From Lotus japonicus (Eukaryota > Streptophyta > Magnoliopsida > Fabales > Fabaceae), in the NCBI RefSeq assembly GCF_012489685.1, contig NC_080044.1, positions 77,238,732 through 77,302,731 of the forward strand: a DNA stretch of 64,000 nt. The letters are read 5' to 3'. Made by a program: the position numbers and the translations under genes. Shown piece by piece: positions 1,919-25,500 of this stretch. Within the stretch, counting starts at the first letter, position 1, and the number at the start of each line of letters is the position of its first letter. The notes beneath the pieces were generated by a model. It ran no database searches and was not told the DNA's origin. It worked only from the letters and a program-made list of their open reading frames with translations.

Positions 1919-1926
1919 TATAAATA
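1919..1926 (+). promoter_or_regulatory. LTR TATA box
   Basis: TATAAATA in the 5' LTR, about 268 bases before the AATAAA. It should set the start of the genomic RNA near 1950. An identical box lies in the 3' LTR at 15521-15528 and could fire outward toward the HD-Zip gene. Confidence 0.7.
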
Positions 1927-2186: not shown

Positions 2187-2192
2187 AATAAA
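2187..2192 (+). terminator. LTR polyadenylation signal
   Basis: AATAAA downstream of the LTR TATA box. In the 3' LTR copy it would terminate the genomic RNA. Position and spacing fit an LTR R region. Confidence 0.55.
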
Positions 2193-2346
2193 TTCCAGTT
2201 TCATCTGAGCTGCTTGTTATTGTCGAAAACACATTTATGTACACACAACACTTTGGCAAAGCGTTTTCTCAAAAGGACCCTGAAATCTAAACTTCCTTTA
2301 GTCGAACTAAGAGGATATTTGTTTACCAAAAATCCGTGTAAACAAA

Positions 2347-2366
2347 TTGGCACGCCCAGTGGGACC
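2347..2366 (+). other. Primer binding site candidate
   Basis: TTGGCACGCCCAGTGGGACC begins two bases after the 5' LTR, where the minus-strand primer site of an LTR element belongs. I could not assign the complementary tRNA with certainty from memory. Confidence 0.6.
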
Positions 2367-2460
2367 ATTTTTGTGAAAACTAAGTTTTACAGAAGCGTTT
2401 TGTGTGTTTTGTTTGCTGCATGCTATTTGGTATTTGCTACTTGCCTTGATTGTGATTTAT

Positions 2461-5400
2461 ATGCGCCTGAGAAGTGGTAAGACTATAAGTATGGCAAGCA
2501 ATCGAGGGAGGACTTCCCCCCAAGGGTCTAACGTGGGCAATCAGGGTAGTCCCGGGGGAAGTAGTGGTAATAATAATGAAGAAGTGTCTACTGGAATGGG
2601 GCATGGCACCACTATGTCAACCCAGAATGTAGCAATTTCTGCAGTTGCAGAAATGCCTGTATCTACATCAGTACAGGCACAAATTGTTCCAACAGTTACG
2701 ATGGAAAACATGCCTTATGGTATGCCTACGTCTATGATGCAAGGCATACAAAGCACGTATTCGACGTTCCCTGAAAATGTTCCTCCATTCGGTATACCCC
2801 CTTTTGGGGCAAATGGAACAATGCTAAATTTGGGGAGTCGAGTTAGCCCTTCTATTCCTGGATCTAGTTCACAAATTTATTTATCTACAGGTATGAACAC
2901 TGGTTCACTTCAAGCCATTAGGCAGCAAGTAGATGATAGTAACCATGAAATGGTTAACATGTTATCTCGACAGATAGGTGAGCTAATCAACCCTGTGCTC
3001 CAAAATAATAATGCCAATAATCAGCATTTGGCACGACAGATGGATCGTTTGGCGACAGCCCTGGGGGCACCAGTCGAGATCCAATCGGCGCCAGGGATCA
3101 ACCAAATCCCGTTGCCTAACCATGTCCCTGCCCCTGTGCGCTATCAGGTGCCGCAACACCAAGAGATGAGGGCAAACCCTTTGTACGAGGCAGTGCAGCC
3201 GCCATTGCAAAATGTATATATGGTAAACAGGGAAGAACACACTGATGGTGTGCTAGAAAGAATTCGACACCAGAACGCTGGGGGGCAACAAAATGTTGCT
3301 GCTGTGGTGGAGCAACTGTTGAACCAACATGGTTTCAACGTGGGTTTCGCGAATAGACCCCATTTTGTGTCAGCCTTTACAGAGGAGGTTCTCGAATCAG
3401 AACTTCCTCGAGGCTGGAAGGTCCCCAAATTCACTAAGTTCTCGGGGGATTCAGGAGAGTCCACTGTAGAACACATAGCCAGGTACCAAATCGAAGCAGG
3501 AGACCTAGCCATCAATGAAAATTTAAAAATGAAGTACTTCCCGAGTTCTTTAACCAAGAATGCATTTACCTGGTTCACCACCCTCGCTCCTAGGTCAGTC
3601 CATACATGGGCTCAGTTGGAAAGAATTTTCCATGAACAGTTCTTTAGGGGAGAGTGCAAAGTAAGTTTGAAGGATCTGGCTAGTGTTAAAAGAAAGCCAA
3701 CAGAGTCTATTGATGATTACCTAAACAGGTTTAGGATGCTTAAATCTCGATGTTTCACCCATGTCCCTGAACACGAGCTAGTTGTCTTAGCCGCTGGTGG
3801 TCTAGAGTATTCCATTAGAAAGAAAATCGACACTCAGTATATTCGAGATATGTCTTTACTCGCAGATAGAGTGAGGCACATCGAATTACTAAAGGCCGAA
3901 AAGTCCGAGGAAAGGGCCAAGACTACTAAGTGGCCAAAGAAGGAGAAGGTAGCGTACATAGACGCGGATTCAGTATGTCAAAATCCATGTGTTTATCGAG
4001 AAGTCCCTGCAGACGTCGATTTAAATGATGTCAATCTGGCTGAACTTCAGCCAGGGGATCCTTATGTTTGTAAAGCATTGAAACCACGTGAAAACAAACT
4101 TGGGGAGGAAAACCCCAAGAACACGATTCCTGCTGTGAAAACTTATACTTTTGATGTGACCAAATGTGATGCAATCTATGATATACTTGTGTCTGATGGT
4201 TTGCTTGTGGTCCCTAAAGACCAAAAACTTCCTTCTCCTGAACAAAGGAAGGGGAAGAAATATTGCAAATATCACAACTTTTTTGGTCATTGGACCTCAC
4301 AATGTGTTCGTTTCAGGGATCTTGTGCAGGGGGCATTGGACTCGGGAAGGCTCAAGTATGACGAAAAAGCCAAAAGCCAAATGAAGATTGACTCCGACCC
4401 ACTGCAGGTAGCTGAAGCCAATTACGTGGAACCTTTCTACATTGGCATGGTTGACATTTCTGAGAAGCTGAATCTGGGCCTGACACTCGAGGAGGCAAAG
4501 GAGGAAAACACGGCTGTCGAAGAACCAGACGTCGTGAAAGAGGTGAGCCTAGAGGAGGTTTACCCCAAGGCAGGGGAAACTCTTGTCGAGTTTTTGTCAC
4601 GAAGCAAAGATAGCGAGAAAGAGATCATGCTTTGTCCTCGATGTAGTGCCGTTTTCGACAAGTCAGCAGCTAAAGCCTATCAAGATTCTGAGATGAAGAG
4701 GCATTACCAGAGCAAAATGCCTGTGTCTAGAAGGTTGAAGTATCCCCACGAGGAGTGGGTTGAGAGGGATCAAGAACTCGATGGCCACAAAGGCCAGAGG
4801 TCAAGAATCAAGGACAAGACTTATGTCCCTGATGCTGGTTTGCCAAAGAATCAATGGTTTAGGCCAGCACCCCCAAGACCAAAACCATACCCCAAGTGGC
4901 AGAAAATCGACTTAGGCCAGGGGTCATCTTACATCAACAATTCCCGTGTGTCGCGGAACTATTCCTATGGCTCTGGGAATTATTATGCTCCTGAGCAAAT
5001 GACTAGAACTCAATTCAGATGTTTCCTGAGGAAAAGAAAAGCTGAGAGAGAAAGAGGCGGTAAGTTCCGTTCATTATGGGACATAAAGCCAGAAGACAAC
5101 CCTCACAAGGAACCTAGTGTGGGGTCAATCATCAACCAGCTCGACCATGCTATCAAACAGGGAACAGTTGTGCCCCCAAACCCGGCCAGAGAAAAAGGGA
5201 AAGATGTGGCTGAGGACGAGGATGAAGACATGCTCGACGATTTCGATGATAGCGATGGGGAAGATCTCAACATCATCTGCATAGTGTCTATCTTACCCGC
5301 TGAATTCGACAGGATCTCGGAGGTCACCGAGAATGAAGAAGACTACTACGACGAGGAGGAGCCAGATGACAACCCCTTGTGCTACTACGTGATGCAAAAA

Positions 5401-6093
5401 GGATCCGTCGAAGACGAAAGAGCTATTTTCCAGAGGCCAACGGAGCAGATGAAAAGCCACTTGAAGCCGTTATTCGTTTGGGCCAAAGTCGACGAAAAAG
5501 GAGTCAATAAAGTTCTTGTCGACGGAGGGGCCACGATCAATTTAATGCCTAAGTTTATGCTCAAGAAGCTAGGCAAAACTGAAGCAGACTTAATCCCTCA
5601 CGACATGGTCCTTTCCGACTATGAAGGGAAGACAGGTTCTTCTTTAGGAGCAATTATGATGAGCATAACCGTAGGAACGGTGGCCCGTTCCACATTGTTC
5701 ATCGTGGTGCCCTCAAAAGCCAACTACAACCTGCTATTGGGGAGAGAATGGATCCACGGCGTGGGGGAAGTGCCCTCAACTCTGCACCAACGTATTTCCA
5801 TTTGGAAAGCAGATGGAGTCGTCGAGAACGTGCAAGCAGATCAGAACTACTACTTAGCGGAGACAGGTTACGTCAGCAAGAAAAATTTCGAAAAGAGTTT
5901 AGCCACAATTGCTCCTCTAGACACAGTGGCCTCTCAATATTTCAACCCGTATTCGGAGTACTCGGTGACGTTGGATCCCATCAGGGGTTTAAACCTTAAT
6001 GAAGCGTACAAACCTGATGCCATGAGTGGATGGCACAGCGATGAAGAAAAGGATGCCACAACTGAGTGGCAAAATGAGGTTAAAGATGATTAA
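2461..6093 (+). CDS. Tat gag-protease polyprotein
   Basis: Structural and protease polyprotein of the Tat element, 1210 residues from ATG 2461 (MRLRSGKTIS); the frame is open upstream but has no earlier ATG. Residues ~320-470 form a retrotransposon gag domain (FTKFSGDSGES ... IDDYLNRFR). A Cys/His motif (CKYHNFFGHWTSQC) lies near residue 602 and probably binds RNA. An acidic stretch follows near residue 920. An aspartic protease motif, LVDGGATINLMP, sits near residue 1020. The frame ends in TAA at 6091-6093, directly before two perfect hairpins, and overlaps the pol frame (+1) by about 65 bases, so pol must be reached by frameshifting, splicing or re-initiation. No internal stop is present, so Gag-PR looks intact. 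Confidence 0.9.
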   Translation: MRLRSGKTISMASNRGRTSPQGSNVGNQGSPGGSSGNNNEEVSTGMGHGTTMSTQNVAISAVAEMPVSTSVQAQIVPTVTMENMPYGMPTSMMQGIQSTYSTFPENVPPFGIPPFGANGTMLNLGSRVSPSIPGSSSQIYLSTGMNTGSLQAIRQQVDDSNHEMVNMLSRQIGELINPVLQNNNANNQHLARQMDRLATALGAPVEIQSAPGINQIPLPNHVPAPVRYQVPQHQEMRANPLYEAVQPPLQNVYMVNREEHTDGVLERIRHQNAGGQQNVAAVVEQLLNQHGFNVGFANRPHFVSAFTEEVLESELPRGWKVPKFTKFSGDSGESTVEHIARYQIEAGDLAINENLKMKYFPSSLTKNAFTWFTTLAPRSVHTWAQLERIFHEQFFRGECKVSLKDLASVKRKPTESIDDYLNRFRMLKSRCFTHVPEHELVVLAAGGLEYSIRKKIDTQYIRDMSLLADRVRHIELLKAEKSEERAKTTKWPKKEKVAYIDADSVCQNPCVYREVPADVDLNDVNLAELQPGDPYVCKALKPRENKLGEENPKNTIPAVKTYTFDVTKCDAIYDILVSDGLLVVPKDQKLPSPEQRKGKKYCKYHNFFGHWTSQCVRFRDLVQGALDSGRLKYDEKAKSQMKIDSDPLQVAEANYVEPFYIGMVDISEKLNLGLTLEEAKEENTAVEEPDVVKEVSLEEVYPKAGETLVEFLSRSKDSEKEIMLCPRCSAVFDKSAAKAYQDSEMKRHYQSKMPVSRRLKYPHEEWVERDQELDGHKGQRSRIKDKTYVPDAGLPKNQWFRPAPPRPKPYPKWQKIDLGQGSSYINNSRVSRNYSYGSGNYYAPEQMTRTQFRCFLRKRKAERERGGKFRSLWDIKPEDNPHKEPSVGSIINQLDHAIKQGTVVPPNPAREKGKDVAEDEDEDMLDDFDDSDGEDLNIICIVSILPAEFDRISEVTENEEDYYDEEEPDDNPLCYYVMQKGSVEDERAIFQRPTEQMKSHLKPLFVWAKVDEKGVNKVLVDGGATINLMPKFMLKKLGKTEADLIPHDMVLSDYEGKTGSSLGAIMMSITVGTVARSTLFIVVPSKANYNLLLGREWIHGVGEVPSTLHQRISIWKADGVVENVQADQNYYLAETGYVSKKNFEKSLATIAPLDTVASQYFNPYSEYSVTLDPIRGLNLNEAYKPDAMSGWHSDEEKDATTEWQNEVKDD

Positions 6094-9000
6094 TTCGAGC
6101 CTAGCTCGAATTTCGGCTTACGCAGCCGAAAACAGAATAAGGACGGCCTTAGAGGCCGCAAGAATAGCCAAAGAAATGGCTACTGACGAAGCCAAGGCCT
6201 CAATTCTTCCTGTCGAAATGACATCTCAGGAGGAGGCAAAAGCACAGAAGGATAACACGTGCATAAGGAAAAACGAGCAGAGTGTCGATGAATGCGAATT
6301 CGAGGACCTTTGCAATTTGAGGCTAGATTGCATCTACGATGACGGCCCATTAGGCTTCGAAAAGCCAGTGGTCGACATGTCCAAGAAAATGGAAGCACAA
6401 GACCCTTTAGAAGAAGTGGACCTGGGTGATGGCTCAGAAAAGAGGCCAACATACATCAGTGCTCTTATTGACCCAGAATTAAAGGATAAGATGGTGAAAT
6501 TACTCAAGGAATTCAAAGACTGTTTCGCTTGGGATTACGATGAAATGCCTGGCCTCAGTCGAGAATTGGTGGAATTGAAGTTACCCATCAAAGAAGACAA
6601 GAAACCAGCCAAGCAATTACCCAGGAGGTTCCATCCAGATGTGTTGGTAAAAATCAAGGGAGAAATTGAAAGGCTCCTTAGGTGTAAGTTTATCAGAACG
6701 GCTCGATATGTGGACTGGTTAGCCAACGTGGTTCCAGTGATCAAAAAGAACGGCAAGATGAGAGTTTGCATTGATTTTCGAGATCTTAACGCTGCCACTC
6801 CAAAAGACGAGTATCACATGCCTATTGCTGAAATGATGGTGGATTCAGCTGCTGGTCATGAATACTTAAGCTTGTTGGATGGTTACTCAGGCTACAATCA
6901 AATCTTCATAGCAGAAGAGGATGTGTCGAAAACAGCTTTTCGATGTCCTGGTGCCTTAGGGACATACGAGTGGGTGGTCATGCCATTCGGATTGAAAAAC
7001 GCTGGCGCGACCTACCAAAGGGTAATGAATACCATTTTTCATGATTTTATTGAAACTTTCATGCAGGTTTACATTGATGATAATGTGGTAAAGTCCCCAT
7101 CAAGGGATGACCATTTATCTCATCTGAGGAAATCCTTTGAGAGGATGAGGAAATATGGCTTAAAGATGAATCCCCTTAAATGTGCTTTTGGTGTTATTGC
7201 AGGTATTTTTTGGGTTTTGTGGTGCACAAAAAGGGCATCGAAATCAACAAAAATAAAGCTAAAGCCATTCTCGACACAAGTCCACCAACCAGCAAGAAGC
7301 AACTACAATCGTTATTGGGGAAGATTAACTTCCTAAGGAGATTCATTACCAACCTCAGTGAAAAGACCAAGTCATTTTCTCCGCTTCTTCGACTAAAAAA
7401 GGAAGATGTGTTCCGCTGGGAGGCAGAGCACCAAAAGGCATTCGATGAACTCAAGAAGTACTTGTCCAATCCACCTGTAATGGTACCACCCATCAAGGGG
7501 AGGCCAATGAAGCTGTATATTTCTGCCACAGATGAAACCATCGGGAGCATGCTGGCTCAAGAAGATGAAGATGGCAACGAAAGAGCCATATTTTATTTAA
7601 GTAGGGTGTTAAATAGCGCAGAAACTCGATACACTATGATCGAGAAATTGTGTCTATGCCTGTACTTCTCTTGTGTAAAGTTGAAATATTATATAAAGCC
7701 AATCGATGTAATGGTTTTTTCTCATTATGATATAATAAAGCACATGTTATCCAAACCAATCTTGCATAGTCGAATTGGTAAATGGGCTTTGGCCCTAACC
7801 GAATATTCATTAACTTACACCCCATTAAAAGCGATTAAAGGGCAGGCGGTTGCTGATTTCTTGGCAGATCACACCATGCCTAGAGAGATCATAACCTATG
7901 TGGGCATACAGCCTTGGAAGTTATATTTCGACGGTTCCAGCCATAAGAATGGAACTGGAATCGGGATGTTTATCATGTCCCCGCAGGGCATCCCCACTAA
8001 ATTCAAATTTAGGATCAAGAGTAATTGCTCGAACAATGAGGTCGAGTATGAGGCACTGATATCAGGCCTCGAGATCTTGCTAGCTCTCGGGGCAAAGAAT
8101 GTTGTCGTGAAAGGGGATTCTGAGTTGGTAGTAAAGCAGCTTACCAAAGAATACAAGTGCGTTAGTGAGCATCTAGCCAAATATTATGTGAAAGCAAGCA
8201 ATTTGTTGGCTAAATTCGACGAAGCTGGAATAGGACATGTTCCTAGAATAGAGAACCAAGAAGCCAATGAATTGGCGCAGATTGCTTCTGGGTATATGAT
8301 AGATAGACTAAAGTTAACAGAGTTAATCAAGATCAAAGAAAAACTGAGTCCTTCAGATCTCGACATTATGGTCATTGATAATCTAACTCCTGACGATTGG
8401 AGAAAGCCAATTGTCGAATACCTGCAGAACCCAGTGGGGTCAACTGATAGAAAAGTCAAGTATAGAGCTCTAAGTTACACCATTTTAGGCAACGAGTTGT
8501 TTAAAAAGAACGTCGACGGCACACTGTTGAAATGCTTAAGCGAAGACGACGCATTTATAGCAGTATCAGCTGCTCACGATGGCCTGTGTGGTGCTCACCA
8601 AGCAGGGGCCAAAATGAAATGGATTCTATTTAGACAAGGTTTGTATTGGCCAACTATCATGAAAAATTGCATCGAGTACGCAAAAGGTTGTCAAGATTGC
8701 CAAAAACACTCAGGAATCCAGCATGTGCCAGCTAGTGAATTGCACTCTATTATCAAGCCATGGCCTTTTAGGGGATGGGCAATAGACTTAATTGGCGAAA
8801 TTCACCCAGCTTCATCAAAGCAGCACAAGTATATCATTGTGGCAGTCGACTATTTCACTAAATGGGTCGAAGCCATCCCACTACAAAACGTAACACAGGA
8901 AACGGTGATCGAGTTCATACAAAACCACATTGTATATCGATTTGGATTGCCAGAGTCCATTACAACGGACCAAGGCACGGTGTTTGTGGGACGCAAAGTG

Positions 9001-9660
9001 GCAGCCTTCGCAGAATCTTGGGGCATCAAGCTTTTGACCTCGACCCCTTACTACGCTCAGGCTAATGGCCAAGTAGAAGCAGCCAACAAAGTCCTAATAA
9101 GCTTGATCAAGAAGCATGTGGGTCGAAAACCAAAAAACTGGCATGAATCTTTAAGCCAAGTCCTATGGGCTTACCGGAATTCACCAAGGGAAGCGACAGG
9201 AACGACGCCTTTTCGACTGGCCTATGGCCAAGAAGCCGTATTGCCCGCAGAGGTATACTTGCAATCATGTCGAATTCAAAGGCAAGAAGAAATCCCAAGC
9301 GACGTTTACTGGAATATGATGCTAGATGAAATGGTCAACCTCGACGAAGAAAGGCTCTTGGCACTAGACGTCTTAACAAGGCAAAAGGATCGCATAGCTA
9401 AAGCATACAACAAAAAGGTTAGAGATCGATCTTTTATTACAGGGGATTATGTGTGGAAAGTTATTCTCCCAATGGATAAAAAGGATAGAGTTTATGGAAA
9501 ATGGACCCCCAGTTGGGAAGGGCCATTTACAGTCGAGAAAACGTTACCCAATAATGCTTACGTGATCAAGGAATTGGGCAATCAAAGTCAATGTGTTACG
9601 ATAAATGGCAAGTATTTAAAAGCATATAAGCCAATGTTGCACGAATGTAAAATCGAATGA
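6026..9660 (+). pseudogene. Tat pol (RT, dual RNase H, integrase), one frameshift
   Basis: Replication polyprotein. Reverse transcriptase spans ~6580-7200, with the catalytic YIDD at ~7070-7081. Near 7200-7215, in a T-rich tract after 'gcaggtattttttggg', the frame shifts by one base, consistent with loss of one nucleotide. The downstream frame then holds the RT-linked RNase H (~7430-7870), a second RNase H-like domain starting YFDGSSHKNGTG with D-E-D acidic residues (~7920-8300), an integrase HHCC zinc motif (~8575-8710), and a D-D-E core with D in AIDLIGE, D in TTDQGTVF and E in GQVEAANK. A WEGPF motif follows; no chromodomain. Apart from the frameshift both frames are open, so the break looks recent. 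Confidence 0.9.
6092..6131 (+). promoter_or_regulatory. Tandem stem-loops at the gag-pro/pol junction
   Basis: Two perfect hairpins overlap the gag-protease stop codon. The first pairs 6092-6100 with 6104-6112 (AATTCGAGC, loop CTA). The second pairs 6111-6118 with 6124-6131 (TTTCGGCT, loop TACGC). They share two bases, so they may alternate or stack. Their location, where translation must leave one frame for the +1 frame of pol, suggests a recoding stimulator; this is inference. Confidence 0.5.
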
Positions 9661-9743
9661 AACATGAACGATAAAATTGCCAAATTATATTCATTAATCG
9701 AAAAACGTTACAAGTATGGCAAAATACAAGTAAAACTAGAAAC

Positions 9744-10217
9744 CTAAAAAGGAAAAATGGCTCTGTATCCGTCATATTTAGCTTGCATGGGTGCTAATCG
9801 ACCCACCAGCGCCACCATCTGGCCCTCAAGTCGAGCCTTCTTTTGACGAGCAACCAGGTCTTCAAGGGAGGCTGCAAGAATCGCGACAACTGACTGAACA
9901 AGACCTTCAGGATCTTGCTGATCCAAAGAGGCCTGGAGAAAATCGAATTTATCCCTCCACTCATCTATTTGGTGTTCTTGAAAGAACACCATTACTGAAA
10001 GTTCCCGGAACTCTTCAAACAGAGGCTTGGCCTCCAAGAGAAGCCCCTGGAACTCCTGAAGAGGAATTCTAACGCGCGCAACGATTGGCCTATGAAGTAG
10101 TTGATCAATGAGCCCTAAAAGCTCATCAAGGCCAGCAGAGGAGTCATACAGGTTCTGGAAAAGGTTCTCTTGGAAAGCCAAGTCCTTGATACGACGAAGA
10201 ATTAGTCTGCTATCCAT
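9744..10217 (-). CDS. Antisense ORF of the Tat element, unknown helical protein
   Basis: A 157-residue ORF on the minus strand starting with ATG at 10217 and converging on pol, whose stop is 83 bases away. The protein is leucine- and glutamate-rich with predicted helical stretches (QEFQGLLLEAKPLFEEF; SLEDLVARQKKARLEG). No domain was recognised. A TATA-like box 91 bases upstream suggests its own promoter. It follows the larger antisense gene in the same direction and could be a separate gene or a relic of a 3' exon. Extra ORFs in this position are known in the Tat lineage; the function is unknown. Confidence 0.6.
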   Translation of the reverse strand: MDSRLILRRIKDLAFQENLFQNLYDSSAGLDELLGLIDQLLHRPIVARVRIPLQEFQGLLLEAKPLFEEFRELSVMVFFQEHQIDEWRDKFDFLQASLDQQDPEGLVQSVVAILAASLEDLVARQKKARLEGQMVALVGRLAPMQAKYDGYRAIFPF

Positions 10218-10307
10218 GGTGAAGAATGAAAGGTTCTTGGATCGCAGAAAGAAGGGAAGAATGGAAAGAAAAGAGTTGCTGTTGAAAGACGAGTAGAAAA
10301 CTGCTTC

Positions 10308-10314
10308 ATTTATA
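10308..10314 (-). promoter_or_regulatory. TATA box of the small antisense gene
   Basis: The minus strand reads ACTATAAATGAAG; the TATA element lies about 91 bases upstream of the ATG at 10217, giving room for a short 5' UTR. Sequence match only. Confidence 0.5.
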
Positions 10315-10729
10315 GTAGGGAAGTAACAAACAGACGTATTAATGCAAGCATGCAGTTACCAAAGCGTCAGCCAAACACGGCAAGCCACGTCAACCACTAC
10401 CACAAGTGAAGGAAATTCTTGAGTCGTTGAACAGAAACGTGATAAAAGCGTTATAAATTATCGTGGTTTTCCAAGAAACTTGGAAGCTGAAAGGTTAGAT
10501 TAAGCACCAAGTTAAAAGGTGAGGTTTAGCAATTCAATGCAAGGAGTAATGTAGCGAAAGCTGATTCAACGATAAAATGCAAATCGAGAAATAAAGCATG
10601 TCGAGCATTGCCAATACAAAGTCATTCATTAATTAGAATCGAATAGAGTTACAGGACGGGAATGATAAAGTTGGCAACAAAGGCCATAATAGATCCATGG
10701 CCATTACAATAAAGCAACAATTATGAAGC

Positions 10730-13700
10730 CTAAATTCTCGACTTGAAGGCTTCAAGCTGAACCCCAGCAGCAGCAATCCTACAATCCAAGCTTTGCTTCA
10801 TACGTTGTTCCGCTGCTACTTCTTTAGAAAGTTGAGATGTCGAGAGCATCACGCCCGTGCACTCAGCAGCCAGCGCATTCAGTCGATAATTCACAGCTGG
10901 GCCTTCATCAATCAACATAGCCTTTTGCTTCTCGAGTCTGGCTACCTCCCTGTGAAGCTCATCCAGTCGAGCATCAACACTCGACAACTCAGCTGCAATG
11001 AGAGTCCTCCTAGCAGTCAGCTTGAGAGCCTCTTCTTTTGCGGGCAATAGGCCATTGGTATTGGAAACCACTTGTGCCTTTTTAGTTTCAATAGATTGCT
11101 CCACTGCAATGGCTTTGTCAAGCGTGGCCACAACATCGACCACGAGAGTTTGCAATTCGACGAGAGCATCTGCCTGAATTTGATCAAGTTGTTGGCTTAA
11201 GAGGAAGGCAAGCAGTTCTTTCACTTCTTGGCCTAATTGAGGAGTGACTCGGACACTGCCAATAAAGCCAGTATCGAAAACCAGCCCTTTTAACTTAACA
11301 AGAGCCGCTTCAATCCGGCTATCATCGGGCACTCCACCAGACTGAGCAGTCTCAGCAATTTCAGCTTGGCGCGGCGGAGACTCGAGATCCAAAGTACCAT
11401 CAAAGAAGCTCTGGAAGATAGAAAGAGGATCCTCGACCAAAAGAGCACTGAGTCTTTCACTAGAAGTATGAGAAGAAGCAGCCGTCTTAGAAGAAGCTGA
11501 ACCTCCCTTAGCATGAGGTGAGATCAAAGCGGCTCTAGCATCTTGTTGAAATCGCTGAGGAGAAAGTCGAGGCTGTTGAGGGGAAGTTTGAAGCTGTCGA
11601 GGAGAAGGTTCGGAATGAGTAGAGGCCAGAACATCAGCCTTGGGTGGGGGCATTACGCCAATCACTTGGTCAGGCTGAATGATTGGATCCTCACCACCCT
11701 GCACTTCATCATGCGGCATGCTTTCTTCACGAGCAGGGGAAGGCAGGTTCTGCATATCCTGTGGAGGAAAATTAGAAAGGTTATCTCGACATTCTTTGGT
11801 ATAACAGGGTTCACAACCAGGATGTTGCCAAGCAATTGGTTTCGAGTTAAAATAGAATGTCAGTTTGTCCCACACAGGGTCTGACTCAGTAAAGTCTAAA
11901 CTCGAGCTAGAGGACTCTAAACCGCTCGAAGAACTAGATAGGGCAATTGGTGGAGGTTTAGAAGAAAACCACGTGGCCCGAGGTACAGCCATTTTAGACA
12001 TGCCAACCCTCTGAAGAATCAAAGTAAAAATGATTGAGAAAGAGGAAAAGGAAGCAAATTGAAACAAGATGTGAGCTAATGATTCACCTTAGGGCCAGAT
12101 GCTCTGAGGGGACTGGAACTGGTTGAACTCTTAGAATGGTGGGAAGAGGAGCTGCCAAATTTGCGACTAGACCTTTTCCCGGAGGTCTTCTTGGCTTGAG
12201 CCATCTCGACAGGAATTGGTGTAGTACCTTGAAGCAGAGGATTAGAAGCCTGCTCATCAACACCTTGTTCAACACCTTGCTGCACTTCCTCACGTTGACT
12301 AGCTGATTTAGCCGGGGAGGGATTTCCCACAGAAGATTCACCAGCGCCTTTAGCCCTCTTTTGGCTCGCAGAAGTAGTTGGGATGGCTCCCCGTTTTCGA
12401 CTCTGAAACAAAAGCAAATGATCACAAAAATATACACGTCGAGTAAAAGTCAGAGTTTCACAAGGTTCAGTGTTACCTTAGGAATCTTGAGCTTATCAGC
12501 CAAGGCAACATCATCATCATCATCATCCTCCACTTCGACAATCGCAGAGGCCACCCGAGGAGAAGCCTGAGGGGTCGGTCGAGGAATTGGTTCAGCTACA
12601 AAAAGAAAACAAAGGAGGATTAAGCCATAAATATCGCAAAGATGCCAGGTCGAAATGATTACCTTGACCAATAAGCGATTTTATCGATATGTGGTTGAAG
12701 ATTTCAACCGGCACATGGAGAGGATAATTCCATAGGTAACGCTTGGTCCAGGTCACCCGCTTCCGAGGGGGCAGTGCACTGTGGTAAAAGTTTTTGATAC
12801 TTACATGATCAACCCACTTAGGAAGCACTACCGGAAAAGCCAAAGCATACTTACAAGTAGGCAGTGGTGGGAACCTAAAGCCAGTTTTTCGAATAATAAA
12901 AGAAAGACCGTCCTCATCAGAAGGAAGGTTCAATCGGGTTTTCTTGGCTTTAGCTTCCCACATTTGCCTGAGAACTTGAGCTGCTTTGGCAACCGTTTCC
13001 TGAAGTCGAGGACCCGGAAAGTACACTACACCGAAGAATTGTTGAAAAGCGTTGATCTCAGATGTATGCATACCTTTGGTTTTCTTTGGGGCCTGCCTCT
13101 GCAAAAGAAAAACGTTTGTTATGTGCTGGAAGCAATCCTCAATTGGCGTCGAAATATCATGCCAATAAGCAGACCACCACGCCTTAAACGCCTGGGTGAC
13201 GTAAAAGGATGGAGTGAAACTGAAAGGACTAAGACCAAGTAGCTCCTCATTGTTATAGTAACCAATGGTAGTGTCGAAAACACTACGTTTGGTGATGGTA
13301 CCAGGATAGAGGATGAGGGATTTGTCGAACAAGGTATTGGGCAAATCTTGACTCAGCCCAAACTGTCGAGACACAAGCTGAGGATTGTAACCGCAAAAAG
13401 TAAAATCATTACTGGCGAAGTTGATGGTTAACACCCTGGGAGACAATATAGTCTGCCAAAGCTCGACTTGGTGTTGAGAAAGGTTCTCCGAACCGGGAAG
13501 ATTAGGATATGAATTCCTTAGCCACCGAGGGCCGTAAGAGGGTTTGTGATACGGTGCAAAGCTCGAGCGGAAACGTTTCAGCTCGAAAAACATGGTGAAA
13601 TACTTCTTAAAGTCAAACTCGAACGTGGAGGCATCATAAGGAGGGGTGAGAGCTTCAAGCCTGAAAGCGTCGATCCTTGTGTTAGACACCACAGGAGGAG

Positions 13701-14691
13701 AGTTCTTGGCTGGAAGAGATGGTTCGAAAACCGCATTCATCCAAAGCTGAAGAAGCCAGAAAGGACCAGCTGCATTCAAAGACGCCACTTTAGGATCTCG
13801 AATATCGGCGATTGCTTCATTGATCATTTGGTAGAGATTACCGAGCACGAGCCTAGCCATGGCGATAATTCGACCCTCGTGCAACAGATTGGCTAAAGGA
13901 AGAAGTTTAACCGGAATTCTCAAAGATTTGGTGCAGAACAAATAGGCAGAAAGCCAATACAGTAGAAACGCGACATGCTCAGCATCGGAGACTTCACCAT
14001 TCTCGACATAATGATCTTTAATAAACTTACTGAAAGCAATGTTGTCTGTCGGAATGGCGATAGGATCAGTGGGAGCAGCAGAAGAATGATAATCGTCACC
14101 CACCACCCAAAGGCCAGTGATGGCAGCAACATCGAGAAGAGTAGGAGAAAGCATCCCAAAGGGGACATGAAAGCTATTGGTGGACCGTTCCCAAAAGAAA
14201 AGAGAACTCAGAAGCATGGCAGGGTTGTAAGTAATCGGCGACCTCGACAACTGAATGAGGTCGAAAATGCCAGTCACTTTCCAATGCCCAGACTTACTGG
14301 CCTCCACCCTGTTGAGCCATCTCAGATAGGCTCCTTCACCAGCAGATGGGTTAGGAGGCGCAGACCTGAAAGCCCTTTTGGGATCTTTCAGAAAAGGGAA
14401 GCGGTAAGAAGGTTGGAATGCAAGAATGAGCTCATCCCCACGAATGCTGGGGTGAAAATGCTCGTAGTCCTCAGGGAGACTGTTAGGCCTGCCCTTCTTC
14501 GCCTTCTTCAAAGGGCCCAAAATGGCACGTAAATTGCCATTCACAGAAATAGGAATAAATACCTGGGATTTCCAGATAGCCCGTTTCTCCACGTCATACG
14601 GCGGATCTGGAATGGGAGTGCGCTTGGCTTCATTCATCTCATAAGCAGCAGCCAAAGGGATGACATTGTCAGAACCAGAACCCAAAGCCAT
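10730..14691 (-). CDS. Antisense spliced gene: plant mobile domain protein inside the Tat element
   Basis: A four-exon model that I could follow by splice signals and frame: 14691-12663, 12595-12477, 12402-12088 and 12010-10730, with introns of 67, 74 and 77 bases. All have GT-AG ends and every join keeps the frame, giving about 1247 residues. ATG 14691 starts MALGSGSDN. Residues ~160-190 carry the plant mobile domain (PMD) signature: FFWERSTNSFHVPFG, then TLLDVAAITGL. Exon 2 is acidic (EVEDDDDDD), exon 3 basic and Ser-rich, and exon 4 ends in a long coiled-coil. PMD proteins include the host MAIN/MAIL1 group and transposon-encoded relatives; the role inside an LTR element is unknown. Because the introns are antisense to the genomic RNA, they escape splicing during retrotransposition. 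A TATA box lies upstream. Confidence 0.75.
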
Positions 14692-14848
14692 GGAAGTGTT
14701 CAGAGAATACACCGGGAAAACAGAAACCAAACGATGGAAGGCGGTCACAAGCAAAATCAGGCAAAAGTTTGAGTGTTCGAAAGCTTGAGGATTTGAAAGC
14801 GTGAGTGATTGAAAGAACGGTAAAGCTTGAAGAAGGCCAACAATGGCG

Positions 14849-14856
14849 TATTTATA
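14849..14856 (-). promoter_or_regulatory. TATA box of the antisense PMD gene
   Basis: The minus strand reads CCTATAAATACGCC, a near-ideal plant TATA box. Transcription would start near 14820, leaving a ~130-base leader before ATG 14691. Confidence 0.65.
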
Positions 14857-15175
14857 GGCAAGCGAATAGTCGGACGTGAAGCTGCATTACAGGGTGATGC
14901 ATAAAATTTTTGAAATCCGACGGTTATTTTATTATATAACCGCAAACCCTAATGAAAAGGCTAGGAAAAGGCCATGATTACTCTAAAGTAGAGACGGCAC
15001 ACGGCAGACGAGGTCAGACGCTAAAGCCTCTGATTGGAGCAAAAGTCAAACGATTGGATCTCTGATGGGACTTGAAATCAGAAAAGGAAAAGTCGCGAAC
15101 AGCCGTCAAGTTCCGTCGAAATGCACGGGCGAAAAATGCTTGATCTCTCCAAGGACTGGTAGTCGAGAATCAACA

Positions 15176-15186
15176 TTTTTGGGGGG
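15176..15186 (+). other. Purine/GT-rich plus-strand primer region
   Basis: TTTTTGGGGGG lies four bases before the 3' LTR, where the polypurine tract should be. The pure purine run is only six G, so the assignment rests mainly on position. Confidence 0.5.
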
Positions 15187-15190
15187 CATC

Positions 15191-15946
15191 TGTTGGCCCA
15201 ATATTTTGGCCCAAGAAAGAAAAACGCATTCAGCCCAAAACTCTCGAGGAAGTCGAATTCTGACTAAAGAAAGGAAGAGGAAGTTGCACCAAGTTAATGG
15301 GGCGGCAAAACTCGACAACAACAATTACTGCTAAACACAGGCACATGTAACGCGTGCCACACTGACCAAGTCAAATTCCCCCCACGATGGTCGAAAACAT
15401 GGCCAGGAAACGGTTGGAGCAGTTGAAGCACACGATCTCCACCACCATGCGCAGAACTTCCGGAGCAAGCATCAGATCGTGGGAGAAACCAGACCCACTA
15501 ACACGCAGAACACGAAACTCTATAAATAGGAGAATCCAATTCAGAAAGAGGGTTCCCAACTCAAACTCTGAAAAATTCACCAGAAAGCTCTAATGTCCGC
15601 ATCAATGAGACTCAAGGAGCAAAACGTGATGATGAAGGAGTACGTTGCAGAACCAACACTTTAGTTTCCCCGCATTTCAGTTTGTTGATTTCCAGTTCTT
15701 CTGTGCAGTTTGTTTGTCGAAATCTGCAGTTCATGTAGTTTTCATGTTATTTTAGTTTGTTTGACTGTTTTGTAATCGACTCGTATTCAATAAATTCCAG
15801 TTTCATCTGAGTTGCTTGTTATTGTCGAAAACACATTTATGTACACACAACACTTTGGCAAAGCGTTTTCTCAAAAGGACCCTGAAATCTAAACTTTCTT
15901 TAGTCGAACTAAGAGGATATTTGTTTACCAAAAATCCGTGTAAACA
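15191..15946 (+). repeat. 3' LTR of Tat retrotransposon
   Basis: 756 bp, ending TAAACA and followed directly by the target duplication GATAC at 15947-15951. It matches the 5' LTR at 752 of 756 positions. It carries its own TATA box (15521-15528) and AATAAA, and points toward the HD-Zip gene about 1 kb downstream. Confidence 0.95.
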
Positions 15947-15951
15947 GATAC

Positions 15952-16543
15952 ATTCCTAGTACCATCGATTCAAACATATAAATAAGTTTATGTTCACACT
16001 TTAATCTCATCTACATTGAGGGGGGGAAATGATTTGTAATGTGATAAAAAAAAATTAAAATGATTGTGAATAAATCAAACCCCAAACATTTAGACCGAGA
16101 AAAAAAATCAGAAAATAAGGGAAAGCGCGCGTCACCCACGTGCTAGTGATGCGCGTGATGTTAGACGCTGACGAAACGCCAATCTTAAGTCGGCTCAAAC
16201 AGTGAATCCAAGCTGTCGAAAGCCACGCCGTTTCCATCTTCATACGTATGCACACTGTACACTCTGAGGAAACGGTCCAAAATCCTGACCCGCAACCGGC
16301 TGAACCGGTAGACCAAAAAGTTGCATTTGAGTTGAATTTGGGGTTCATTTGATATCCAACCGCAGTAGCAGTCACCTAACCCCAGTCAGATTTTAACCCA
16401 GGTTGGTTTATTTAAAGACACAAACTCTGCAAACTAAGCTTGGGCTGTGAACTTGTTCACCCTCCACTCTCTCCCATTTCTCTCCAATTTCTCTCTCTCT
16501 TTTCTCTCCAATTCCAAACTCTCTTGTTTTTCCTTCATAGTCC
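15952..16543 (+). promoter_or_regulatory. Probable upstream promoter of the HD-Zip gene
   Basis: Non-coding DNA between the retrotransposon and the HD-Zip transcript. It includes a G-box CACGTG at 16137-16142 (context CCCACGTGC, resembling an ABA-response element), an alternative TATTTAAA at 16409-16416, and a CT-rich tract at ~16459-16540. HD-Zip class I genes are commonly ABA- or drought-responsive, which fits a G-box, but regulation here is inferred. Confidence 0.45.
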
Positions 16544-16946: not shown

Positions 16947-18330
16947 ATGAAGAGACTTGGAAGATCTGATTCTTTAGGTGCTCTCATGAAGATTTGTCCA
17001 CCAACAACAGGTTAATAGATAAATCATAATTGAATTGAAACTTGTTCTTTTTTTTACACAATTCAAAACAACCATGATAGGTGTTTGTTCTTTGTCCTGA
17101 CTCAACTTTTTTGCTTATTTTGGAGATCAATTATGCCAATTGTTTAGTTCTTCTTTGCTTTACACCTTTTTCCTACTGTATTGCATTACAATTTACAACT
17201 CATCATGTTCAATTATGCTTTTTTCTCTATATGGGTATCATGTTCTTCTGTGTTTGTTTCAAGAGACAGCAAATACTGTTTCACTAACCATGTTCTGTCT
17301 GATTTGAATTGACACAGACGAAAACCTCAGTCCAAGGAGCAACCACAACCATGTTTATGGAAGGGAGTTTCAGTCCATGCTGGAAGGACTAGACGAGGAA
17401 GGGTGTGTTGAGGAACCAGGACACCACTCTGAGAAGAAACGAAGACTCGGTGTGGATCAAGTCAAGGCTTTGGAGAAGAACTTTGAAGTAGAAAACAAAC
17501 TTGAACCAGACAGAAAAGTGAAGCTAGCTCAAGAGCTTGGCTTGCAACCGAGGCAAGTAGCTGTTTGGTTCCAAAACCGTCGAGCTAGATGGAAAACCAA
17601 GCAATTGGAAAGAGATTATGGCGTTCTGAAAGCAAACTATGAAGCACTGAAACTCAACCATGATTCACTCCAACGTGACAATGAAGCCTTGCTCAATGAG
17701 GTAACAAAATTAATCAAATTAACTAGATTCATGAACCCTTTTGATGAAAGTGTATTAAGAAACTTAAATTTTGGCTTATGGTTGCAGATTAAGGAATTGA
17801 AATCAAGGGTGCAAGAAGAGAACAACAACAACACTGAAAGTGATGCTTATGTGAAGGAAGAGATGATAACCCTGCAAGACATGACTCCACTTTCTGAAAC
17901 CGCCATTCCTGGATCCGATTCCAAGGAATTGAGCTATGATTGCTGCTTCAAGAGCTCTGATGATGGGGTGGACGGAACCACCACCGCGTCGCTCTTCGCT
18001 GAGAATCTGAAAGACGGTTCTTCCGACAGCGATTCCAGCGCGATCTTGAACGAAGACAACAACAGTCCCAACGCGGCGATTTCTTCATCTGGGGTTCTTC
18101 AGAGTCACGACTTTTTCATTTCTCCAGGGTCATCTTCGTTGAAGTTCAACTGCTCTTCGTCTTCTTCGCCGTCATCCATGAGTTGCTTCCAGTTTCAGAA
18201 GCAGTACCATCCTGCACAGTATGTGAAGATGGAGGAGCACAATTTCCTCAGTGCTGATGAGGCTTGTAACTTTTTCTCAGATGAACAACCACCAACCCTG
18301 CAGTGGTACTGTCAGGAAGAGTGGAATTGA
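16947..18330 (+). CDS. HD-Zip class I homeobox-leucine zipper transcription factor (ATHB5/6/16-like)
   Basis: Nuclear DNA-binding regulator. Exons 16947-17010, 17318-17700 and 17788-18330, with introns bounded CAG|GT..AG and GAG|GT..CAG, give 329 residues. ATG 16947 encodes [13 protein letters not shown], matching the family's N-terminus. The homeodomain is at residues ~60-115, with the recognition helix [10 protein letters not shown] from 105. The leucine zipper follows at ~118-157, with heptad leucines in [18 protein letters not shown]; homodimers or heterodimers of this class bind CAAT(A/T)ATTG-type sites. The Ser/acidic-rich tail ends [18 protein letters not shown], the conserved C-terminal activation motif of the ATHB5/6/16 subgroup. 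Intron 2 is 87 bases, in frame and stop-free. The gene appears intact. Confidence 0.93.
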
Positions 18331-18870: not shown

Positions 18871-19106
18871 AAAATCAGTCCATCTTTAGTTCGTGAATTT
18901 GAGTTTTTAGTTGGGAATTGTTAAGTAGAGGGGGTGGAATAGAGTGTGGAGAAGTAATGAATGTGCTAATCCGATGTATGCACACACAAGGTAAAATTTG
19001 ACTTAAGTATTTTTTTTTTGAAAGACTTAAGTATTTGTTGAATATTAATGAACTACCGAATTTTCAATTCTTCAATTTTTAAAATTTTAAAATATAATAA
19101 TTTCAT
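18871..19106 (+). repeat. Direct duplication, copy 1
   Basis: 236 bases starting aaaatcagtccatctttag, closely repeated at 20605-20801. Copy 1 has extra bases near 18890 and 19008-19030, including a T9 run followed by a short repeat of 'gacttaagtat'. The two copies bracket a MULE and an RNase H fragment, so the segment was duplicated in direct orientation before or together with those insertions. Confidence 0.85.
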
Positions 19107-19117
19107 TTTTTTTGTTA

Positions 19118-20171
19118 GGTTTCATTTAGTGTACACAAGAATTTCCTTGTGTAAGGTTGCACAACCCTAGATTTACCTGTTATAATAGGTTACTTTTAAT
19201 ACTTTTTTTTAATTTTTTTCATCTAATTATCATTTAACCCAAAAATATTTTTTAACCACCACCACATACAGTGGTTTGAGAAGAAAGTGGCGGCACCGGC
19301 TTCGACGCCGGCGGTGGGAGGAGAGGTGGCGGAGGAAGAAACTTGTGCTATGACTCTTATTTATCAATTGAACATATACCAGAGAGAGGATTTGCAATCC
19401 CTAAAAAATGTTCCTTTGGATCCAACCGTGGCACCCACAAATTTTCAACCTTGGATCTATTCTTTGAGTGCTTGTTGTTGTTGTGGTAACCGGTAAGAGA
19501 AGGAGAAGAAGAGGTTAGATCTGGATCTGTGGTGGGTGTTGAACTGTTGATGGTAAATCCGCTCAGATCCACTAACAGTAAAGAGCAAGCATTCATCACC
19601 ATGTGTTGGACTTATGTGTGTTTGTGATGGTTCTGGTGCATCTATGCCGACAAGATCCAGCCACAGACTGACGAAAACCACCAGAGGAGAATCAGATATA
19701 CAAGGAGAACCCACCGCGACATTCTGGAAATGGTAACCAAGGTTTTCTCAGAGACCCACTCGCTGGGAGCTTCTAGAGACAACGCACTCATCAAATTCGT
19801 CGCCTCCCATCGGTGGAGAACCATAACTGCGTGAAGAATATTGAATTTGGGGGATGAAGGAGAAAAGAAGATTTGCTGGTGGTGGTTGGGCGGAGGGTGA
19901 GGAGGTGGAAGAAGAACTGAAGAACCAGATCTGCCAAGATCTGCATGAAGAACCACTGAATTTGGGGGAGAGAGAGGAGAGAAGAAGGTCTAGCGGTGGT
20001 GGTTGGGGCTGAGGGCAAGGAGGTTGAGGGTGGTAAAGGTAGATCTTTTTTGAAAAGAAAAAAACAAAAGATTTAAAAAAAATGATTTAACCGGATGGAC
20101 CTATGATGATGGGTCATTTTAGGTTTGTGCAACCTTACACAAGGAAATCCTTGTGTACACTAAATGAACCC
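19118..20171. mobile_element. Non-autonomous Mutator-like element 1
   Basis: 1054 bp flanked by a perfect 9-bp duplication TTTTTGTTA (19109-19117 and 20172-20180), the Mutator hallmark. The ~50-bp inverted ends start GGTTTCATTTAGTGTACAC and GGGTTCATTTAGTGTACAC, and each contains its own small palindrome around 'cacaag..tt.cttgtg'. No transposase is present. The interior is more GC-rich than its surroundings (for example 19285-19345 and 19700-20030) and contains coding-like stretches without a recognised product, consistent with captured gene pieces. Confidence 0.85.
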
Positions 20172-20198
20172 TTTTTGTTACAAGAGGAAAGCTAAAAA

Positions 20199-20604
20199 GA
20201 AATGACAACTACGCTACAACATCTTTTAGAAGAGCTTCCATACAAACGAGGGTGGTAGACGCCATTCGCGTCTCGCAACGCCCTCCCATTAAGCATGTTT
20301 TGCCAAACAATCTGCCGCATTGTTCTTCTCCCTAGGCACATGAGTGAGCTCCACATTCCAGCCCAACTGAAGCATGGTCCTGATGCGAACAATTGCATCC
20401 CTTGCCCAATAGGTGGATACGTCGACCTGTGACGTGCAGACGTTTGCGGCCTCCAAGCAATCAGAGTAGCAAGACAGCTCCCTGAGTCCCAAATTCCACG
20501 CCTGTTGGAGGCCCAATTCAATCCCCGCGAGCTCCGCTATGAACGTGTCGCCACCATCAACACCAAGTGAGAGCCCCGAGAGCCAAGTGCCCGCAGCATC
20601 CTAG
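20199..20604 (-). pseudogene. RNase H-like domain fragment (retroelement type)
   Basis: Reading the minus strand from ~20604 gives an RNase H fold found at the end of many plant non-LTR elements and RNase H-like genes: an acidic E in FIAELAGIELGLQQAW, a D in LSCYSDCLEA, and the closing motif HVPREKNNAADCLAKHA. The catalytic N-terminal strand is missing or cut off at the junction with the duplicated segment. No start codon or flanking RT is found, so this is a truncated relic used as filler between the direct repeats. Confidence 0.7.
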
Positions 20605-20801
20605 AAAATCAGTCCATCTTTAGTTGAGGTTTTAGTTGGGAATTGTTAAGTAGAGGGGTAGAATAGAATGTGGAGAAGTACTGAATGTGCTAATCCGATG
20701 TATGCACACACAAGGCAAAATTTGACTTAAGTATTTGTTGAATATTAATGAACTATATTGAATTTTCAATTCTTCAATATTTAAAATATAATAATTTCAT
20801 A
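20605..20801 (+). repeat. Direct duplication, copy 2
   Basis: 197 bases matching 18871-19106 in the same orientation. It abuts the RNase H fragment directly and lacks the T-run insertion seen in copy 1. Confidence 0.85.
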
Positions 20802-22560: not shown

Positions 22561-25500
22561 TACATCTATTATATTTGATAGGTCAATTAATACCTTGATC
22601 ATTAAAAATATAATAAACAACTGATGAAATAGAAGAGTATGAAATGATGAGCAAAGTGGACAAAAAGTCTTAAATTAAAACCCTTGTTGCATAGATTGAA
22701 CTTCGTACAATTGAATAACTAATAAAAAAATTGGTTAACCAAATCTCAAATTATGCAAAACATATTAGGGGATGTGGTTTAATGATGGCTAATAAACAAT
22801 AGCTGATTTAATCTACAATGAAAAAAAAAAGAGAAAAGATTCTTTATGTACGTGATTATGCGAGTTCATTTTTTACACAATAAAATAAACTAAGTTTGAC
22901 CCATATCAACATGAAGTCGTTTCACATTCTTCATGAGCCTAAAGACAATAACACAAATTATAGATATGAAGAATCACCAATAAAGCATTCAGAACACATT
23001 TTAATCTTAGAAAAAAAAGAATGTACCGCGAAATTTGTTATTGTATTTGATGCATTAATTAATACTTAATGAAGGTACTTTCTTGTTAAAATATATTTCT
23101 TCCCGTAGGAGAATTTAACTCCTATAATAATTTGTACGAAAAAATTAAAGTGGACTATATTATTATGTAGTAAAAAATTAACATCAAACTATATTATATT
23201 ATGTTTTTCTTGTAACAAAAAAAAATTCCGATGAAATCTTATTAACATTTATTTTTATGTAGAAGTATTTTCATGTAAAATATTCTTCCTATATATAAAA
23301 GCTTTTAGGCTCTTTCTAATACATTTAGATCCAGCTTCTCCTTACTCTCAGGATGCCTGAAAGTCTTTTCTCAAGTCTATCTGGTGGGTAATATCGATGA
23401 AGATGATGACACCCACCATACCTTGCTTGCTTCAAGGTCGATCTCTTGTATCCTCCTCCTGCCGAAGACTTTAAGAGTAAACCTTGCCATTCCAACTTTC
23501 ATCGATCGAGTTTCAGTTGTTTTTTCTGTTGATCCAGGTGAGAAAGCTTACTAAGGCAACCTCTTTTGTCTATCTCCCAATATAAGAAGCATGTTGCTTT
23601 GCTCTTATAGTAGTACTAATGGGCGTACTTTAGAACAAATTTTTAGCGAAGGTCTTGACAGTTTGGAACTGAAAGGTTTGGTTCATTAATAATATCTAGT
23701 AGTTTCATCATGCTATTCTGCTTTTGAGCTTGTTGTACTTACCGGAGCATTTCTGCGATAAAAAAATTCAGAATAGTAAAGCAGTCGTAGTATGCTCCCT
23801 TTACTTGCTCTAGTGCTCAAGTGATAGCTGAGTGCATACTGTTTGTATCTGAATTATATATAAAAGACTCTTAAAAACAACTACTTAATTCTCCATTACA
23901 AAGAATATACATTACATCATAACCTAATTATTATTTGTCAGTGACATAAGTGTCGAAATAATAGTAATGGAAATTTCGAATGGTGTGGATAAGGGTTAAA
24001 AGTCCAATCTCATAAGAAAGAAAAATCTCCATTTACATCAAAATCTCTCTCAGATTTCTCTACCTCACTATCACCACCGTTTTTCTTATAAATTATCCAC
24101 AAACACACTCACAAATTCCACACAGTACCTAACATCATATGCAAATTTTGTTTTCACTGCAACCAGAGTCTGTTCTCTGACATAAAAAAAAACACTTCAT
24201 AAAGTAAGAAGGTATCACATTTTGAATTTAAATAATTAAAATATTTATTTCTAATTAAAAAATTAAATGAAACTTGCTTCCAAATCAGCAGCAATCCTAG
24301 GTGCTATTTCTGATTGTTGTCCAACTTGAAAATGAATTAATATGAACTCATGCTAATTCAAATGAAACTTGCTTCCAAATCAGCAGCTTCCAGCCGTATC
24401 TGCATTCTAAGTAACAGAAAATCAAGAACTCATGAAGTGAGATTGATAGACATGTTAGAGTAGGATAGACTAAAGACCACCAAACATAATAGAAATATGT
24501 GCAACATCAATCTAGCTATGATAGTGCAAAGATAGCAATCAAATTTGCAGACAGATATGAAAGCCAAAGAATGAATTGAAGCCACTTTTTGGCTATGGCC
24601 TTCCAGTGGTTTCCATAACCAATCAGATCTATTTGTAAGGGGAAACTAATCACATGCTACTAAAGAAGATGAATGGAAGAAAACCCCTCTAGAAATTTTA
24701 GACCCATTATATTTGTTGAACGGCTAAAACAACTCTTTGCTTTATGTAGCACTGTTGTTGAAAGTACAATAACCAAATCAAAAACATATGCTGATACTAT
24801 CGTAATGTGATAATTACACACTCATGCAAGCAAGACTTCCAATCACACTAAAGTTTGATTAATTGAACCATAGTAGAACAACGATTAATGATAAAATCTA
24901 ATATTGCCTTCGAAAAGTGACTTTTAATATATGTAATGATGATAGATAGATAGATGTAGAATTGATGAACTAAGTCAGTAAAACTATATATGCATCACAG
25001 TAGTGCAACACCAAACACATATCTCTATCTCTTATCTGGGGAATATATACATATGCATCACAGTAGTGCAACACCAAACACACATCTCTATCTCTTATCT
25101 GGTGAATATATACATATAATGGACTGAGAAAAACCTCCATGAGTACTGGTCTCACATGTTTCGTGACTTACTTGAAATGAGAGCAAGATAAGATCTTGAG
25201 TCATCAATCATGTTTCATCTTCAGCTAGCTGAGAATCAGAGAGTGTAGTCAGAAAGAGGTATACACCTCATTGTCGTTCTGTACCTACGGATAAATTCAT
25301 GTCAAATGTTTCCAGGGAAGCCAAGGAAATCAATTTATTGTTAGAACATTGGTTTAGACGTTTAGCATATTAGAAAGGATAGCACCAGTTTTAAAAGTCT
25401 AACCTCAATAGTATAGCTTGAGCGAACAAAGATAAGCAGTAAAATCTCATCCATGATATGTAGTTCTGTAGTTGTAACGGTAAGCACCAACAATAACCAT

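Follow-up and report, generated by a model that had tools for sequence, protein, structure and literature searches.

How can a retrotransposon keep a gene that contains introns, and what would such a gene do for it? The question is raised by a 64,000-nucleotide (nt) stretch of the Lotus japonicus genome (contig NC_080044.1 of assembly GCF_012489685.1, positions 77,238,732 to 77,302,731 of the forward strand; hereafter the window), in which a long terminal repeat (LTR) retrotransposon of the Ty3/gypsy type carries, on the strand opposite to its gag and pol genes, a multi-exon gene for a protein with a plant mobile domain (PMD). Plant LTR retrotransposons generally lack introns, Ogre and EVADE being notable exceptions (PMC12786077), and PMD is the most frequent atypical domain across plant Gypsy elements, where its function is given as unknown (PMC9289625, PMC8616336). 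Sequence comparison, structure models, and analogy suggest that the antisense gene of this element is autonomous and alternatively spliced and that it encodes a nuclear DNA-binding protein, which would counter host silencing of the element's own family in the manner of the transposon protein VANC21, a reading to which we assign a probability of roughly 0.5.

Structure of the antisense PMD gene

Four exons on the minus strand between the integrase domain and the 3′ LTR join into a single frame of 3,744 nt that encodes 1,247 amino acids and a stop codon, confirming the gene that a first-pass annotation had assembled across introns of 67, 74, and 77 nt. Exon 1 (12663-14691, minus strand, as are all features of the gene; residues 1-676) contains the PMD at about 13174-14271, which matches the Pfam profile PF10536 at residues 141-506 (E 9.7e-35; 120.8 bits against a curated cut-off of 34.9) and places the protein in the family that had been proposed for it. 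Intron 1 as first drawn, with its donor at 12662 (12596-12662, 67 nt), separates exon 1 from the acidic exon 2 (12477-12595), which has a homologous exon in a sister family of elements; intron 2 (12403-12476, 74 nt) leads to the basic, serine-rich exon 3 (12088-12402), in which a cluster at about 12349-12399 resembles a bipartite nuclear localization signal (NLS); and intron 3 (12011-12087, 77 nt) precedes exon 4 (10730-12010), where a coiled coil is predicted at about 10733-11458. All three introns have GT and AG ends, and the retention of any one of them leads to a stop within about 24 codons past the end of the exon.

The same layout recurs in homologous proteins. The RKR-X10-KRAK cluster of exon 3 is found in the Lotus homologues P0001, P0003, P0005, and P0007, takes a variant form in P0009-P0011, and is missing from P0002 and P0006. 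The structure model of a Trifolium homologue has a disordered linker followed by long helices at 903-1065, and the order of PMD, linker, and coil is common to the Lotus, Glycine, and Trifolium models; a comparison of the PMD protein with viral contigs gave no match. The gene also has a TATA box of its own, as had been suggested earlier: a TATAAAT motif at 14850-14856 (starting at 14856) lies 165 nt upstream of the ATG. A scan of 1501-16000 on the plus strand and 9000-16000 on the minus strand showed few exact TATAAAT or TATAAAA motifs, which occur in the two LTRs, at 10452 within the element and 15977 beyond it on the plus strand, and at 14856 and 10314 on the minus strand.

Copies in the genome and selection

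Searching the window's genome at the DNA level yielded 660 candidate places, of which 37, the window's own included, were scored; at each of these the gene is complete or nearly so at 95-100% identity. Its span is 3,944-3,962 nt at all 37 scored places, and with spans so uniform none of the 67- to 77-nt introns has been lost at any of them, unless an insertion made up for the loss; this agrees with the earlier proposal that the introns are carried through retrotransposition. Eight of the 36 other scored copies, picked among the most diverged, were read (a copy at C3:90255143 was kept out of the reading, its match being partial). All eight have kept intact the GT and AG at the ends of each intron, as well as an alternative donor of intron 1 described below, and the PMD frame is unbroken in three, with a one-base gap in one and stops in four.

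Over all pairs of nine sequences (the window and the eight copies), the pooled ratio of nonsynonymous to synonymous differences per site (pN/pS) was 0.189, with values of 0.147 in the PMD part, 0.158 in the coil, and 0.27 and 0.35 in the linker parts. The window gave 0.16-0.21 against the six more distant copies and 0.38-0.43 against the two closest of those read, a rise in the closest pairs that fits selection on the replicating lineage which ends once a copy has inserted. These ratios show purifying selection on the PMD gene. The first-pass annotation had named frame-breaking changes together with a dN/dS near 1 as telling against the gene; breaks do occur, but at 0.19 the ratio is well below 1, so that combination is absent.

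For pol, four sequences gave a pN/pS of 0.092; a fifth (L039) was dropped because its stretch did not align (42% identity), the pooled pol value with it being 0.61. Intron divergence was 0.035 against a pS of 0.093, and at C/G positions the introns (0.060) equal fourfold-degenerate sites (0.059), so no constraint on the intron interiors is claimed. Neutral simulations, which were conditioned on annotated models and hence biased toward open frames, were not significant for the close homologue P0001 (32 of 200); for residues 541-676 they were significant against P0002 (3 of 300) and not against P0008 (59 of 300). One copy hints at a mosaic element, its pol differing from the window by 0.29 at synonymous sites and its PMD gene by 0.14 (L038 versus L031).

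Conservation extends to a sister family, represented by one locus (L042) in which the PMD and pol genes lie on opposite strands, protein identity is 71% in the PMD and 77-90% from RNase H to integrase, and splice sites and TATA motifs are homologous to those of the window gene. Between the window and this locus dS is 1.3-1.9, near saturation, and dN/dS is 0.111 in PMD exon 1 and 0.065 in pol. When the genome was searched with the sister protein, exon-1 and C-terminal matches lay within 5 kb in all 40 candidates scored out of 2,639, and a separate exon-2 match was present in 20 of the 40. A distant element-like stretch (L010, C4:32007010-32017009) has a PMD antisense to RNase H-integrase at 26% identity. 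Elsewhere, a cluster of PMD loci at C6:44.81-44.94 Mb (L001, L003-L006, L008) has long open frames without internal stops and matches the Pfam PMD profile far more closely than the PMD of the element does, and in P0044 an RVT_3 domain stands beside a PMD.

Predicted alternative splicing of intron 1

The three introns rank 1, 3, and 5 among 979 GT-AG pairs of 60-150 nt under a crude score built from a plant splice consensus; ranks 2 and 4 share a different donor, AAAG/GTATGC at 13072-13073 (minus strand), which scored best of 200 donors and is kept in the eight copies. Paired with the acceptor at 12596, donor 13073 removes residues 541-676 with the frame kept. Ten Lotus models were found (NCBI gene predictions P0001-P0007 and P0009-P0011), and eight of them join residues matching 540 and 677, which corresponds to this pairing; P0002 reads through both donors into intron 1, and P0004 stops earlier. 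The join of intron 2 is exactly as predicted in P0001, whose PMD part is 96% identical. No clear case of donor 12662 in use was seen among 49 homologue models, where only P0017 of pea aligns across the site, with a gap just after it. Both forms of intron 1 occur in one family, in which P0008 reads through and P0009-P0011 are spliced at the matching place; at the place matching intron 3, P0009 appears to retain the intron and P0010, which belongs to a 43%-identity family, removes it. Residues 541-676 are themselves under constraint (pN/pS 0.226), so the longer form in which they are kept is probably real. The GT-AG ends first assigned to intron 1 hold in the eight copies, and its standing as the main form does not, given the donor used in eight of the ten Lotus models: judged by these models, alternative splicing is the better description of intron 1, and splicing from 12662 is probably a minority form.

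TCGA palindromes in the element

The palindrome TCGA occurs 140 times across the whole element (1589-15946) against 44.4 expected (standard deviation 5.5, maximum 58 in 200 dinucleotide-preserving shuffles) and is the most enriched there of 136 strand-merged 4-mers, with a mild preference for the context WWSTCGASWW. The number of sites per kilobase changes abruptly at the borders of the element, and in the right flank the motif is below expectation (85 observed, 113 expected). Shuffling of synonymous codons ruled out a by-product of codon usage for the three large genes, in which 31 sites were found against 17.0 in gag-pro, 29 against 11.7 in the second pol open reading frame (ORF), and 40 against 20.5 in the PMD gene (0 of 500 shuffles each); the 12 sites in the first part of pol, against 7.2, were reached by 5 of 500. 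Pooled noncoding parts have 17 sites against 6.7 (0 of 500), mostly in the LTR (8 against 2.5).

At the sister locus TCGA is likewise the first of 136 4-mers (74 against 21). In pol, 19 of 36 sites are common to the two loci, as are 10 of 30 sites in exon 1 of the PMD gene; the remainder have been gained or lost, with the totals level. Within the window's family, 36 of 49 CpG columns inside TCGA are invariant against 56 of 137 at other CpGs (p 1e-4; nine related sequences). A general trait of PMD loci was ruled out, as 19 of 20 others (L010-L029) are without a clear excess (z of 2.0 or less), and the only locus with one, L019, overlaps a copy from the window element's family in that copy's 5′ part; as far as tested, the TCGA tag is therefore a trait of this pair of families.

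Proposed function and alternative explanations

The core of the PMD is predicted, from structure models, to share the fold of the DNA-binding region of VANC21 (PDB 9lnj). We propose that the PMD gene would be transcribed from its own antisense promoter, that splicing would unite the PMD, the basic NLS-like segment, and the coiled coil, and that a coiled-coil dimer may bind DNA of the element and block or remove silencing marks. More speculatively, the target might be TCGA, the palindrome characteristic of these elements and an obvious candidate since a paired reader would fit a palindromic target. The introns lie opposite to the genomic RNA strand, so reverse transcription would copy them unspliced and the gene would stay intact; placing a gene on the opposite strand is a way for a retroelement to keep introns in it. 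A wider and decidedly tentative proposal is that PMDs are a DNA-recognition fold common to the VANC anti-silencing proteins, that these elements run a self-tagging system in which the spliced antisense gene yields a dimeric PMD protein which recognises TCGA palindromes accumulated throughout its own element, coding parts included, and shields it from silencing, and that the genic PMDs MAIN and MAIL1 would be relatives of this recognition module that have been turned to host use. Together, the fold link to a DNA-binding anti-silencing protein, the conserved splicing, and the candidate self-motif make the function of the PMD answerable by one binding assay.

Several observations weigh against an anti-silencing protein that reads TCGA. 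The PMD frame is broken in five of the eight copies read, and the PMD gene has a pN/pS roughly double the pol value. The models are of moderate quality (mean predicted local distance difference test scores of 65 and 60), their structural identity to VANC21 is 8-10%, and a shared fold by itself shows no function; the Pfam scan gave no match at E ≤ 1 to either of the VANC domains, DUF1985 and DUF287, and a sequence profile set against the PDB, 9lnj included, gave chance or coiled-coil matches only, among the matches listed. By analogy with MAIN and MAIL1, host PMD proteins that promote silencing (PMC5418596), the PMD could also silence. TCGA shows no excess in a second antisense ORF of 157 amino acids (3 against 3.0), its excess in noncoding sequence outside the LTR and introns is weak (7 against 4.1, reached by 51 of 500 shuffles), and it is spread over coding sequence too, unlike the VANC21 sites, which lie in noncoding repeats. 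Retention within TCGA is better at codon positions 2 (p 0.016) and 3 (p 0.004) and not at position 1 (p 1.0), CCGG is kept as well as TCGA, if at few sites, and the relatedness of the nine sequences weakens the statistic. At L010, whose PMD is antisense to pol, there is no clear excess (38 against 27, z 2.0).

The protein might instead be a structural or replication helper, in nuclear import of the pre-integration complex, integration targeting, or packaging, that binds DNA or chromatin without opposing silencing. Such a role has been proposed in general for antisense ORFs such as Grande gene23, whose product GENE23 is nuclear (PMC7264820); the NLS-like cluster and the coiled coil are present, and purifying selection is compatible with any role in the life cycle. 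The only well-matching solved fold is, however, that of an anti-silencing factor, and a promoter on the opposite strand would suit trans-acting control more than particle assembly; we consider a helper rather unlikely. It seems improbable that the gene represses its own element as copy-number control, whether through a silencing PMD like that of MAIN and MAIL1 or through antisense RNA that pairs with the genomic RNA. Host PMD proteins MAIN and MAIL1 do act in silencing (PMC5418596) and antisense transcripts may trigger it (PMC7264820), but repression by RNA alone does not predict a pN/pS of 0.19 among copies or a dN/dS of 0.11 between families, with both of which a silencing protein is still compatible.

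The TCGA excess has slightly less than an even chance of being unrelated to the PMD, for example as an RNA motif bound by Gag in packaging or as a context protected from CpG mutation. Every major part of the genomic RNA, gag-pol included, has sites, and a packaging motif fits as well, since it would also span the whole genomic RNA; CpGs inside TCGA are, moreover, better kept than most others. Protection alone cannot lift the count above the expectation from base composition (140 against 53.5), a point that leaves the RNA motif unaffected. We reject as extremely improbable that a fragment captured from a host gene is drifting here in one lineage as a passive relic: a stop or frame-breaking gap in five of the eight copies would suit a relic, but near-complete genes at 37 places with 95-100% identity, conservation in the sister family near synonymous saturation, the order of PMD, linker, and coil shared by models of three genera, and a pN/pS far below 1 would not. 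The first-pass view that the gene was domesticated from host PMD proteins, or donated by them, was not upheld: in the published tree, Gypsy-encoded PMDs form clades (PMD-A1/A2) found only in Gypsy elements and apart from the genic PMD-B/C, with the original direction of exchange left open (PMC5418596).

Relation to known systems

The occurrence of PMD in Gypsy elements, of antisense accessory genes in Tat-type elements, and of an own promoter for one of these is already published (PMC6317226, PMC9289625, PMC7264820). Like the window element, Grande of maize (gene23), RIRE2 of rice, Retand of Silene, and PvRetro13 of Phaseolus have an antisense ORF between pol and the 3′ LTR (PMC7264820, PMC11963269), and Grande gene23 is driven by a promoter of its own and yields a nuclear protein (PMC7264820), features to which a TATA box and an NLS-like cluster, read from sequence alone, correspond in the window gene. 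As described, those antisense genes have either no known domain or different ones (TRP28, SMC-like), whereas the window gene combines a PMD, a coiled coil, and three conserved introns; the terms PMD, plant mobile, and intron were not found in the texts of PMC7264820 and PMC11963269. PF10536 is matched, as in the window gene, by extra ORFs in Ogre and in further Gypsy elements of plants, with a PMD in 57% of Ogre (PMC6317226, PMC9289625), but Ogre has a typical spacer between gag-pro and pol that the window element lacks, and the published passages are silent on the orientation and splicing of the PMD ORF. A multi-exon antisense gene with conserved introns in such an element was not found in the literature searched, in which the TCGA tag was sought more narrowly. 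Steinbauerova 2011 and Gomez-Orte 2013 are reportedly earlier work cited within published accounts of Gypsy PMD and antisense accessory genes.

VANC21 comes from VANDAL21, a Mutator-like element of Arabidopsis, and has in common with the window PMD the predicted core fold, a transposon as its carrier, and an intron-bearing gene (PMC5735166, PMC10398659; PDB 9lnj). It recognises a short motif repeated in its own element (YAGTATTAY, in noncoding repeats, whereas TCGA lies throughout the window element), and by analogy comparable self-recognition of TCGA by the window PMD is possible. VANDAL is a DNA transposon whose VANC gene is not antisense to a polyprotein, in contrast to the antisense PMD gene of this LTR retrotransposon, and VANC proteins carry DUF1985/DUF287, neither of which the PMD protein matches. 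The HBZ gene of human T-cell leukemia virus type 1 (HTLV-1) is spliced, and we know of no similarity between HBZ and the PMD protein. Like the gene described here, HBZ lies antisense in an LTR element, and its product is nuclear (PMC11963269).

The host element and neighbouring sequence

The element (1589-15946, plus strand) is complete, with LTRs of 756 bp at 1589-2344 and 15191-15946, and has the 5-bp target duplication GATAC on either side (1584-1588 and 15947-15951). The LTRs differ by four mismatches in 756 bases, every one a transition, and at a substitution rate of 1.3e-8 per site per year the insertion is about 0.2 million years old. The gag-protease ORF (2404-6093; Retrotrans_gag E 1.1e-12, protease match weak at E 0.013) is followed by the reverse transcriptase part of pol (6026-7336) and by a pol ORF (7180-9660) with RT_RNaseH at residues 108-209, the second, archaeal-type RNase H (RVT_3) at 250-367, and the integrase (rve) at 529-625; the window copy has a break in its pol frame near 7.2 kb (about 7180-7336), while its antisense PMD gene is intact. 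In angiosperm Tat elements a second archaeal-type RNase H sits between RNase H and integrase (PMC6317226), and by this feature the element belongs to the Tat lineage of Ty3/gypsy. Ogre elements have their gag-pro and pol ORFs set apart by a spacer or intron with a mean of 274 bp (PMC6317226); here the two ORFs overlap without a spacer, so the element is not classed as Ogre, and the extra PMD ORF, common in Ogre, is not a defining trait. The Retand-type domain TRP28 (PF04195) had no match at E ≤ 1 in either antisense protein in the Pfam scan. The second antisense ORF (9744-10217, minus strand) has its own TATAAAT at 10314, 97 nt before its ATG; no homologue was found among 133 candidates at E ≤ 1e-3 in annotated proteins, and its matches to the PMD protein and PMD homologues are at chance level only.

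Downstream of the element, about 1-1.4 kb from the 3′ LTR, lies an ORF (17377-18330, plus strand) that we take to be a homeodomain-leucine-zipper-like gene, an earlier exon of which may, by eye, start near 16946. Farther along, at 18931-20739, two 85-bp repeats enclose inverted 74-bp arms that are 86% complementary, and 24985-25110 is a tandem duplication of 63 bp.

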